The notes beneath the pieces were generated by a model that saw only the letters and a list, made by a program, of their open reading frames with translations, had not been told where the DNA came from and did no database searches. A stretch of 64,000 nucleotides of DNA, taken from Chryseobacterium geocarposphaerae (lineage in GTDB: Bacteria; Bacteroidota; Bacteroidia; Flavobacteriales; Weeksellaceae). A program made the translations under genes and the position numbers. Positions 25,948 to 32,225 of the stretch are shown here, piece after piece; position 1 is the stretch's first letter; each line of letters begins with the position of its first letter. The stretch spans positions 868,001-932,000 of the forward strand of contig NZ_PGFD01000001.1 in the NCBI RefSeq assembly GCF_002797535.1, read 5' to 3'.

Positions 25948-26529
25948 ATGATGAAACCTTTTATTTTTTTATTTTTTCTTATTATTTCCTGTTCAAAATT
26001 TGAGTCTCAGGCTAGTCATGCTATTGATTATTTGCCAAAATCAAGAATTCTGGAAATCAAGAACTATATTAAAGGTAAGGATTACAATCAGGATTTAGCC
26101 GTTTTTATCAATTTCAAAATTCACTCAGGAAAGTACAGGTATTTCGTTTATGATCTGAAGAACGATAAGGTACTGCAAAAAGCAATTGTTGCTCATGGTG
26201 ACGGTTCGGTTATTAAAAACTCACAAAGCCTTCAATTTAGCAATACAGATGGTTCTCATCAGTCATCTTTAGGAAAATACGAAATAAAGGAAAGTTATAC
26301 TGGAAAATTTGGTAAAGCTTACCGACTGGACGGTTTGGATGAAAGCAATAGTAATGCAAGATCAAGAGCCATTGTTCTTCATTCTTACTACTGCATTCCG
26401 GATCATGAATCTAACAACCCTGCCTGTTTAAGTTTTGGCTGTCCGATGCTTTCAAAAAATGCGTTTAATAAAACTGCCACATACATCGATCAGTCAGAAC
26501 AACCGGTTATTTTGTATGCTTTTTACTAA
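25948..26529 (+). CDS. L,D-transpeptidase-like (YkuD_2) lipoprotein
   Basis: A 193-residue protein with a lipobox (L-I-I-S-C15). The C-terminal domain has His145 (I-V-L-H-S-Y) and Cys165 in L-S-F-G-C-P-M-L, equal to the catalytic pair of the murein L,D-transpeptidase catalytic-domain family. The usual S-x-G-C is here S-F-G-C, so the key Cys is kept. Cross-linking or editing of peptidoglycan at the outer-membrane side is likely but not proven. It follows lolD closely, so they share a transcript. Confidence 0.85.
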   Translation: MMKPFIFLFFLIISCSKFESQASHAIDYLPKSRILEIKNYIKGKDYNQDLAVFINFKIHSGKYRYFVYDLKNDKVLQKAIVAHGDGSVIKNSQSLQFSNTDGSHQSSLGKYEIKESYTGKFGKAYRLDGLDESNSNARSRAIVLHSYYCIPDHESNNPACLSFGCPMLSKNAFNKTATYIDQSEQPVILYAFY

Positions 26530-28722: not shown

Positions 28723-29334
28723 ATGATTCCAAATTTTAAAGCACATCCATGGCATGGGATTTCTGCGGGAGAAGATGCGCCAAATGTTGTAAATGTTTTC
28801 GTGGAGATCGTTCCTTCAGATACTATTAAATATGAAGTAGATAAAGAAACCGGATTTTTAAAGGTTGACAGGCCTCAAAAATTCTCAAATATTATTCCTG
28901 CATTATATGGTTTTGTTCCTAGGACTTACTGTGACCAGGCTGTAATGAATTTAGCGGTTGAAAGAGGAGCAGACGATGTTACCATGGGAGATCATGACCC
29001 GCTTGATATCTGTGTTTTGAGCTCTCACAATATTCATTCAGGAGGTTTATTGATGGAAGCTATTCCAATTGGTGGATTCAAAATGATTGACGGAGGAGAA
29101 GCGGATGACAAGATTGTTGCTGTAATGATTGGAGATCACGCTTTCGGACACTACAGAGATATTTCTGAATTGCCTGAAGCGGAAGTAAAAAGATTAATGC
29201 ACTATTTCTTAACGTATAAAAACTTACCGGATGAACCTGCAAAATGCAGAATTCAGGAAGTTTACGGAGCAGATCATGCGAAAAAAGTGATTAAAGCTTC
29301 TCAGGAGGATTATGCCAATAAATACGGAGGATAA
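28723..29334 (+). CDS. ppa: Family I inorganic pyrophosphatase
   Basis: A 203-residue soluble pyrophosphatase with the signature G-D-H-D-P-L-D-I-C (the aspartate-rich metal site) and F-G-H-Y-R-D-I. It splits PPi to two phosphates with Mg2+ in the cytoplasm. The membrane pyrophosphatase gene lies 158 bases downstream on the same strand, past a terminator, so both ways of using PPi are encoded side by side. Confidence 0.96.
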   Translation: MIPNFKAHPWHGISAGEDAPNVVNVFVEIVPSDTIKYEVDKETGFLKVDRPQKFSNIIPALYGFVPRTYCDQAVMNLAVERGADDVTMGDHDPLDICVLSSHNIHSGGLLMEAIPIGGFKMIDGGEADDKIVAVMIGDHAFGHYRDISELPEAEVKRLMHYFLTYKNLPDEPAKCRIQEVYGADHAKKVIKASQEDYANKYGG

Positions 29335-29360
29335 AATTTCTCTTGTTTAATTATAAATTA

Positions 29361-29385
29361 AGGATAAATGAATTTCATTTATCCT
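29361..29385 (+). terminator. Intrinsic terminator of ppa
   Basis: Arms AGGATAAATGA and TCATTTATCCT with a short loop and six T after it, between ppa and the membrane pyrophosphatase gene. Confidence 0.85.
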
Positions 29386-29492
29386 TTTTTATTGAGGTTC
29401 CATTAATATTTTCATCCGGCAACATTATTTTCTTAAAATCCTTAGGAATTATTTATTATATTTAATTCTCTATTACCAAAAAATATTAAACT

Positions 29493-32225
29493 ATGGACTT
29501 ATTTGTGTTAGTACCAATTTTTGGTGTCATTGCTTTGCTCTATACCTTTATTCAAAGCAATTGGGTGAGTAAGCAGGATGCCGGAAATGACAAAATGAAA
29601 GTTATCAGCGGACATATCGCTGACGGTGCAATGGCTTTTCTAAAGGCTGAGTACAAGATTTTAACTTATTTCGTAGTAATTGTAGCTATTCTTTTAGCGG
29701 TGATGGGAATGAGCAATGCCAACTCCCACTGGAGTATCGGGATTGCTTTTGTTGTTGGAGCTATATTTTCAGCATCTGCAGGCTTTATCGGGATGAAAAT
29801 CGCAACGAAAGCCAATGTAAGAACAGCAGAAGCTGCGAGAACTTCGCTTTCAAAAGCTCTTAAAGTTTCTTTTACAGGAGGTTCTGTAATGGGAATGGGC
29901 GTTGCCGGATTGGCCGTTTTAGGATTAGGTGCTTTATTTTTAATTATTAAACAGATTTTTGCAGCAAATGCGCCTGTAGATTCCCACGAAATGGAAAGAA
30001 CCATCGAGATCTTAACGGGGTTTTCTTTGGGAGCAGAATCCATTGCTCTTTTTGCAAGAGTAGGAGGCGGAATTTATACTAAGGCTGCTGATGTGGGAGC
30101 TGATTTGGTGGGAAAGGTAGAAGCAGGAATTCCGGAAGATGATCCCCGAAATCCGGCGACAATTGCAGATAACGTAGGAGACAATGTAGGGGATGTTGCA
30201 GGAATGGGAGCCGATTTATTCGGATCTTACGTTGCTACGGTTTTAGCAACCATGGTTTTAGGAAGAGAAACCATATCTGAAGATTCTTTTGGAGGTTTTG
30301 CACCCATTCTTTTACCCATGCTGATTGCAGGGACCGGGATTATATTTTCTATTATAGGAACTTTATTTGTCAGAATTAATGATAACGAAGGTTCGTCTAC
30401 TTCAAGCGTACAAAATGCACTCAATCTGGGAAACTGGGGAAGTATCGTTATTACGGCTATAGCTTCTTATTTTTTGGTGACTTATATCTTGCCTGATAAA
30501 ATGGTTCTTAGAGGTCAGGAATTCTCTAAAATGGGCGTTTTCGGAGCAATTATGGTAGGATTGGTTGTCGGTACATTAATGAGTATCATCACGGAATATT
30601 ATACCGCAATGGGGAAAAGACCGGTTTCCAGTATTGTAAGACAATCTTCGACAGGTCATGCCACCAATATTATCGGCGGACTTTCAGTGGGTATGGAATC
30701 AACATTATTACCTATTATTGTTTTAGCAGGCGGAATTTATGGCTCTTATCTATGTGCAGGATTATATGGCGTTGCTATTGCTGCGGCAGGTATGATGGCA
30801 ACAACAGCGATGCAATTGGCCATTGACGCTTTCGGTCCTATTGCGGACAATGCAGGAGGAATCGCTGAAATGAGTGAATTGCCAAAAGAAGTCCGTGAAA
30901 AAACAGATATTTTAGATGCTGTCGGAAACACTACGGCAGCAACGGGAAAAGGATTTGCTATTGCTTCTGCAGCATTGACTGCTTTAGCTTTATTTGCTGC
31001 TTTCGTAGGGATTGCAGGTATCGATGGGATTGATATTTACAGAGCCGATGTTTTGGCCGGATTATTTGTAGGAGGTATGATTCCGTTTATATTTTCTTCC
31101 TTAGCTATTACAGCGGTAGGACAGGCTGCAATGGCAATGGTGGAAGAAGTCCGCAGACAGTTTCGTGAGATTCCGGGGATTTTGGAAGGAAAAGCACAGC
31201 CAGAATATGAAAAATGTGTTGCTATTTCTACGGATGCTTCCATTAGGAAAATGATGCTTCCGGGAGCAATCGCTATTATTTCACCTTTATTAATCGGATT
31301 TATTTTCGGACCTGAAGTATTAGGCGGTTTTTTAGCCGGAGCAACCGTAAGTGGGGTATTAATGGGAATGTTCCAGAATAATGCAGGCGGAGCATGGGAT
31401 AATGCTAAAAAATCATTTGAAAAAGGAGTAGACATCAACGGACAGACGTATTATAAAGGATCAGAACCTCATAAAGCTTCGGTTACCGGAGATACAGTAG
31501 GAGATCCGTTCAAAGATACTTCGGGACCGTCCATGAATATTCTTATTAAATTGATGTCCATCGTTTCACTGGTTATTGCACCGACTTTGGCAACTTTACA
31601 CAAAGATAAAATCGAAGCGAACCGAAAAGCAAAAATTGAAGCTTTAACGGGGATTTCAGGTCCGGGTTCTTCAATCGATACTCATAATAGTGCACTTATA
31701 TTAGCTCCAAAAGAAATTAAAGGCTATGTAAATGAAAATGGTGATTTTGTATATGATACAGGAAATATCAAAGAAATTGAATTGAAAGGAGGAAAGAAAA
31801 TTTCAATAGGAGAAGGAAGCCAATTATATCAGCTGTATAATTCTGTGAAACAAAAAGATCAGAAAGTTTTAGATCCCAATAATTGGTACACCATTGAAAA
31901 CCTTTATTTTGAAACAGGCTCAAGTGATTTAAAAGCAGGTTCAGAAGCTCAATTATTAAATTTGGTTGAAATTATGACCGCTTATCCGGATTTGAAAATA
32001 AAACTGGGAGGATATACAGATAATTCAGGGAATGATGAAAGTAATCAAAAGCTATCCAATTTAAGAGCTCAAACTGCAAAACTAAAATTATTAGAATTAG
32101 GAATCGCTGCTGATAGAGTGGAAGCGGAAGGATATGGTTCTCAGCATCCGGTTTGTGCAGCTAACGATACTGATGAGTGTAAGGCGAAAAACAGACGAAT
32201 TGATGTAAGGGTTCTCTCTTTATAA
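29493..32225 (+). CDS. hppA: Membrane ion-pumping pyrophosphatase fused to a C-terminal OmpA-like domain
   Basis: A 910-residue protein; ordinary membrane pyrophosphatases have about 650-770. Residues 1-700 have about 16 predicted helices with [11 protein letters not shown] (about 199-209) and D-N-V-G-D-N-V-G-D (about 226-234), the PPi-Mg binding motifs. G-N-T-T-A-A-T-G-K (478-486) has Ala482 where K+-independent pumps have Lys, so it is probably K+-dependent; Na+ versus H+ cannot be decided here. After a linker, residues about 797-909 form an OmpA-like peptidoglycan-binding domain ([29 protein letters not shown]). Family topology puts the C-terminus in the periplasm, so this domain could hold the pump to the cell wall. 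Confidence 0.95.

Follow-up and report, generated by a model that had tools for sequence, protein, structure and literature searches.

A membrane pyrophosphatase with a putative wall-binding OmpA domain in Chryseobacterium and other Bacteroidota

Flagellar stators containing MotB or PomB are ion-conducting complexes of the inner membrane in which one subunit ends in a periplasmic OmpA_C domain. MotB spans the membrane with only one helix and is not an enzyme. It tethers the stator to the cell wall, and binding to the wall alters stator activity. Stators are tethered but conduct ions instead of pumping them, and we know of no primary ion pump that is tethered to peptidoglycan. Here we describe a candidate for such a pump, encoded in a 64,000-nucleotide stretch of Chryseobacterium geocarposphaerae DNA (the window). 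In contrast to the stators, it comes without a rotor partner and a plug is not evident.

For the coupling of a membrane pyrophosphatase to a C-terminal OmpA-like domain, there is one described precedent. According to the accessible part of a 2024 review (PMC11210485), membrane pyrophosphatases from Paucibacter and further members of the Burkholderiales/Pseudomonadota end in OmpA-like domains, whose role 'remains to be elucidated'. For the fusion itself, the novelty suggested in the original prediction is thus not supported. Five table rows in that part list proteins of 571-818 aa (Burkholderiaceae, Betaproteobacteria, Pseudomonadota), whereas the Bacteroidota frames comprise approx. 870-1000 aa. 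The Burkholderiales type protein is described there as K+-insensitive, whereas the Bacteroidota fusions have a K+-dependent signature. Moreover, the latter contain an extra segment before the OmpA domain, a difference drawn against Burkholderiales tails known here by description alone. A plasmid search for the Burkholderiales fusion gave 395 matching records, none of which spanned 80% of the query among the matches listed. For fusions in Bacteroidota, no paper was found in a literature search covering few subscription journals; the available text of PMC4602150 mentions pyrophosphatase and OmpA in unrelated places. What is added here is the fusion in another phylum and another ion subfamily, together with binding-residue and topology evidence for a tether.

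Within Bacteroidota, the OmpA_C domain of PorE from the type IX secretion system of Porphyromonas gingivalis has been solved with a bound peptidoglycan fragment. As given in the available part of that study (PMC7192894), Asp576, Asn584 and Arg591 hold the peptide with their side chains. Unlike the protein presented here, PorE is a periplasmic, outer-membrane-associated lipoprotein without a pump. AbOmpA binds diaminopimelate (DAP) with Asp271 and Arg286, as excerpted from PMC5974059.

The hppA-ompA fusion gene is a single intact open frame from ATG to stop encoding 910 aa (Table 1), with exactly the coordinates, frame and length originally proposed. Residues 12-695 match the entire Pfam profile H_PPase (PF03030; 1-645 of 645, E 2.3e-272, 905.8 bits). 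The OmpA-like domain is complete, as had been claimed from the motifs T-D-N-S-G (residues 842-846) and L-S-N-L-R-A (854-859): residues 805-901 cover the Pfam OmpA profile (PF00691) from 1 to 98 of 98 (E 4.5e-16, 59.4 bits against a cut-off of 27.2). No third Pfam domain was detected at E 0.001. The nearest named relatives belong to Chryseobacterium and are 85-93% identical (best segment) across residues 1-910; a single membrane pyrophosphatase is encoded in the genome of the window. As the same single open frame occurs in many genomes, a sequencing, assembly or frameshift artefact is ruled out. The fusion of pump and OmpA domain is real and conserved. The notion that the usual pump ends at about residue 700 is true for many relatives but not for others, since the C-termini of OmpA-less related pumps range from immediately behind the last helix to approx. 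135 residues further on, and some of these pumps bear other extensions. A Pfam scan of one OmpA-less pump (L101) returned H_PPase only.

Table 1. Features of the fusion gene and its upstream neighbourhood (window coordinates)
Feature	Position	Strand	Evidence or remarks
Soluble family I inorganic pyrophosphatase (neighbour, outside the fusion)	28723..29334	+	PF00719, NCBIfam PRK00642
Terminator-like hairpin between both pyrophosphatase genes	29360..29386	+	12 pairs, loop 3, T-rich tail; consensus match only
hppA-ompA fusion gene	29493..32225	+	Open frame; Pfam H_PPase + OmpA; architecture recurs in related genomes
Membrane pyrophosphatase core, residues 1-702, 16 predicted membrane helices; E182 (5.43), G244 (6.53), A482 (12.46)	29493..31598	+	
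Charged helix and flexible linker, residues ~703-742	31599..31718	+	Helix 704-718; low pLDDT in both models
Conserved strand-rich small segment, residues ~744-793 (G-D-F-V-Y...)	31722..31871	+	Tail model; no Pfam match
OmpA_C domain, residues 805-901; D843, N851, R858, Cys888, Cys896	31905..32195	+	Pfam; fold matches; conservation

The ion-gate residues point to a K+-dependent H+ pump. Positions 5.43, 6.53, 6.57 and 12.46 were assigned by alignment of 207 membrane pyrophosphatase ORFs, and the assignment of these columns is justified because the patterns E/G/A, S/E/x and S/G/E separate cleanly among them. The window protein has E182, G244, A248 and A482, so that glutamate occupies 5.43 but neither 6.53 nor 6.57, and alanine occupies 12.46, which places it in the E5.43 (Flavobacterium johnsoniae) type. 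In the available parts of PMC6882861 and PMC10897367, 5.43 is the position in the K+-dependent H+-PPase of F. johnsoniae, whereas the Thermotoga maritima type has E6.53. The top NCBIfam model, covering residues 3-711, is an equivalog named 'sodium-translocating pyrophosphatase'; a Na+ pump was nevertheless set aside because the E5.43 pattern is the one given for an H+ pump. The window protein is most likely a K+-dependent H+ pump, K+ dependence being assigned by pattern, and we infer its specificity for H+. The E182/G244/A482 pattern is present in 57 of the 58 fusions but also in 81 of 149 OmpA-less pumps, one of which has serine at 6.57. This subfamily is therefore not peculiar to fusions. 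Sixteen order-level relatives (L109, L110, L113, L114, L117-L123, L125 and L127-L130) have other C-terminal extensions, none of them OmpA.

The predicted topology places the tail in the periplasm. A hydrophobicity scan with 19-residue windows and a cut-off of 1.1 chosen by us yielded 16 hydrophobic segments in the pump core and no membrane-helix candidate past residue 715 (maximum 0.72). Lysine and arginine residues number 36 in the eight presumed cytoplasmic loops versus 7 in the seven presumed periplasmic loops. The AlphaFold2 model of the fusion protein contains 16 long helices, and residues 1-710 match solved pumps; it was built from a shallow alignment of 41 rows with moderate pLDDT in the core (mean 75.7). 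Residues 192-217 and 219-249 are nearly all invariant in this alignment. Together with the full-length profile match, the predicted helix number and fold are those of solved H_PPase enzymes. In membrane pyrophosphatases, even-numbered helices have their N-termini facing the cytoplasm (PMC8657866, in the part available), so helix 16 is expected to end outside. The periplasmic C-terminus assumed in the original prediction is thus supported by helix number, charge bias and published helix orientation.

The conserved residues of the tail suggest that its OmpA domain should grip the cell wall. D843, N851 and R858 are kept in all 58 fusion ORFs counted among the 207 (56 different tails; L001, the copy in the window, is counted), as the proposed wall binding demanded, and their spacing equals that of the PorE triad in the accessible description. 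Modelled alone from a shallow alignment of 24 rows, the tail reached a mean pLDDT of 85.3, with blocks of 88-98 across the OmpA part. Across the full and the tail model, the OmpA domain matched the folds of PAL, OprF, the AbOmpA-pentapeptide complex (3td5) and PorE (6top), and further those of Pal-TolB and YfiB-YfiR complexes and of Helicobacter pylori MotB domains. Whole-profile match, fold and the Asp/Asn/Arg peptide-binding side chains are all those of an OmpA_C domain, and a degenerate domain is ruled out by the kept binding residues. Cys888 and Cys896 occur together in 45 of the 58 fusion ORFs and are both absent from 13, a single one being found in none. This both-or-neither distribution is what a disulfide, and hence an oxidising compartment, would lead one to expect.

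Between pump and OmpA domain, a helix (704-718) is predicted right after the core, followed by a stretch with pLDDT below 50 at residues 716-739 in the full model and, matching it, 720-737 in the tail model. Residues 744-793 form predicted strands, for which the tail model has a block pLDDT of 89-95. At E 5, residues 701-799 gave no hit in Pfam, so no family in Pfam accounts for the strand-rich segment at this threshold. All 50 Foldseek matches listed for the tail are OmpA-type or OmpA-containing by title. Homologous counterparts of the strand-rich segment, likewise coupled to an OmpA domain, are present in short lipoprotein-like proteins (L092, L093, L094 and L098; N-termini judged by eye), where a signal-peptide-like N-terminus takes the place of the pyrophosphatase, and behind DUF937 and one apparent membrane helix in L095-L097 (Pfam run on L096). 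The latter are possibly another candidate for a wall-tethered inner-membrane protein.

We consider it quite probable that the fusion is a proton-pumping pyrophosphatase with a periplasmic wall-binding tail. The K+-dependent E5.43-subfamily pump would hydrolyse cytoplasmic pyrophosphate and export H+. Its C-terminus would leave helix 16 on the periplasmic side and lead via the short helix, approx. 25 flexible residues and the strand-rich segment to the OmpA_C domain, which would bind the diaminopimelate of peptidoglycan stem peptides non-covalently. As a homodimer, the pump would carry two wall-binding domains and could thereby be tethered to the wall in a MotB-like manner. We infer actual wall binding and what would follow from it, namely that the pump diffuses less or stays in a fixed position; the models, from alignments of 41 and 24 rows, do not define where the OmpA domain lies with respect to the pump. 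Counting against a tether, the tail is dispensable to many relatives, being absent from 51 of 80 loci and from eight or nine of 36 family pumps. If the tether is real, pyrophosphate-driven proton export would be spatially restricted in a sizeable group of Bacteroidota, deliberate placement of a bacterial pump would become directly testable, and the OmpA tails noted in Burkholderiales would gain a testable function.

OmpA-fold domains bind proteins too, as illustrated by Pal-TolB and YfiB-YfiR among the fold matches, and the strand-rich segment at 744-793 is conserved and unexplained. The periplasmic domain might therefore mainly contact an outer-membrane or other periplasmic protein, or tune half-of-the-sites behaviour within the pump dimer. 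We regard this as unlikely, because an invariant peptidoglycan-contacting triad would not be expected from contacts to proteins only.

A more far-reaching version of the wall-binding tail, which we put forward as a rather unlikely extension, is a wall-responsive pump. Here, the two OmpA domains would bind peptidoglycan, fix the pump and change its activity. Pyrophosphate left over from biosynthesis would thus feed the proton motive force at particular places along the wall, such as those next to wall synthesis or to the motors of gliding and type IX secretion. That the tail was gained recurrently, once as a BON-OmpA version in a different ion subfamily (L164, see below), would then be convergent selection.

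The fusion recurs in other genomes, which answers the search that had been proposed as a check. Among the best 80 of 591 related loci, a sample therefore biased to close relatives, 29 have an OmpA tail. These belong to Chryseobacterium, Kaistella, Cloacibacterium, Taibaiella and an uncultured member of the Chitinophagaceae, and to Spirosoma, Runella, Emticicia, Jiulongibacter, a Cytophagaceae genome and one contig binned as Phycisphaerales. This last contig (L019) looks like Bacteroidota contamination, and so does a protein labelled Lupinus albus (P0061). In the window's family, 36 of 60 sampled genomes have a membrane pyrophosphatase. For 27 of these pumps, the open frame spans 906-959 aa and the tail matches next to the pump, the rest being eight frames of 693-777 aa and one contig-edge fragment. 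In one genome (G406, L196), the 693-aa pump stops inside its last helix, and an OmpA fragment 78% identical to the window tail is found on another contig, so this may be a fusion split by contig ends. Across the phylum sample, at least 381 of 395 genomes have a membrane pyrophosphatase. Ninety genomes, hand-picked to cover 54 other family codes of this sample with one pump locus each, provided four additional fusions: L141, L145 and L150 (family code f10) and L164 (f44). The ORF, tail and tree counts leave out second copies of two-pump genomes and three divergent pumps below the phmmer threshold (L159, L187 and L188), which were inspected individually and have no OmpA tail.

The tail has been gained or lost repeatedly. 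On the pump tree (FastTree, 178 rows), the OmpA label requires at least 10 changes, 8 of which are forced by starred branches. Two OmpA-less pumps (L024 and L025) fall inside the Chryseobacterium-group fusion clade (support for the inner placement 84, not starred), and the absence of their tails is most simply read as loss. In the module tree, the fusion L099 clusters with two lipoprotein-like proteins from its family, of which L098 is encoded in the same genome. A single clade for the 35 fusion tails other than L164 was not rejected (p-AU 0.339), and a separate origin is therefore claimed only for L164. This fusion apparently arose separately because it has both a different linker and a different ion-gate pattern: a BON-like segment precedes OmpA (L164:1408-4401; 26.8 bits, slightly short of the cut-off at 27), and the pattern S/E/G/A (E6.53) is that also found in the T. 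maritima type. In the pump tree, the Chryseobacterium-group pumps (L001-L018, L021 and L022) fall among Chitinophagales pumps and away from L099 and L100, which share their family code; by this FastTree placement, horizontal transfer is possible.

Such mobility would also suit a tail that is a mere passenger, an exported module with little effect on the pump or one cleaved after export into a free wall-binder. That the module also exists in free proteins and behind the DUF937 domain of membrane proteins fits this idea, as do at least two other, different C-terminal extensions on related pumps. We consider it very unlikely, since tail and binding residues have been retained across both the Chryseobacterium group and the Spirosoma-Runella-Emticicia group. 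A cytoplasmic C-terminus with a misplaced or non-functional OmpA domain is hardly credible and was ruled out on the predicted topology, as the even helix number, positive-inside bias and published helix orientation all oppose it, and so do the paired cysteines and the homologues with export signals; nothing in its favour was found.

The periplasmic end of the pump seems to be a hot spot for added segments. OmpA-less pumps often have a different conserved end of approx. 60 residues with the pattern ...ALKxDGL...VxxKDGKLxINGKxQS... and no convincing Pfam match, as in L031 (8098-8421), L055, L056, L062, L073 and other Chitinophagaceae. In the window's order, a conserved C-terminal segment ...F-x-G-T-E-x-E-V... 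is found in L109 (3589-3888), L117, L120, L123, L125 and L128; it has no Pfam match. Cysteine-rich C-terminal extensions are present on the pumps of the order-level relatives L127, L129 and L130.

The soluble pyrophosphatase gene is indeed the next gene upstream, as originally noted, at a distance of 158 bp that includes the terminator-like hairpin. In 14 of the 29 fusion loci, all Chryseobacterium or Kaistella, such a gene ends at most 1.5 kb upstream; in 3 further loci the distance is 1.9-3 kb, and in the remaining 12 none was detected within flanks of up to 6 kb, shorter at contig ends. Only one of the 51 OmpA-less loci (L025) has it within 1.5 kb. These counts refer to relatives of the window's family I pyrophosphatase, the only type detected by the neighbour search. 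The soluble gene therefore marks one lineage and not the fusion. A pyrophosphate 'operon' of soluble and membrane enzyme was set aside as part of the finding, being lineage-limited and having a terminator-like hairpin between the genes. Farther upstream lie genes for a DUF7935 protein, a protein without Pfam match, RadC, an L,D-transpeptidase domain protein and an ABC ATPase. The L,D-transpeptidase gene (YkuD_2; window 25948-26529), approx. 3 kb upstream of the fusion, likely encodes a wall enzyme.
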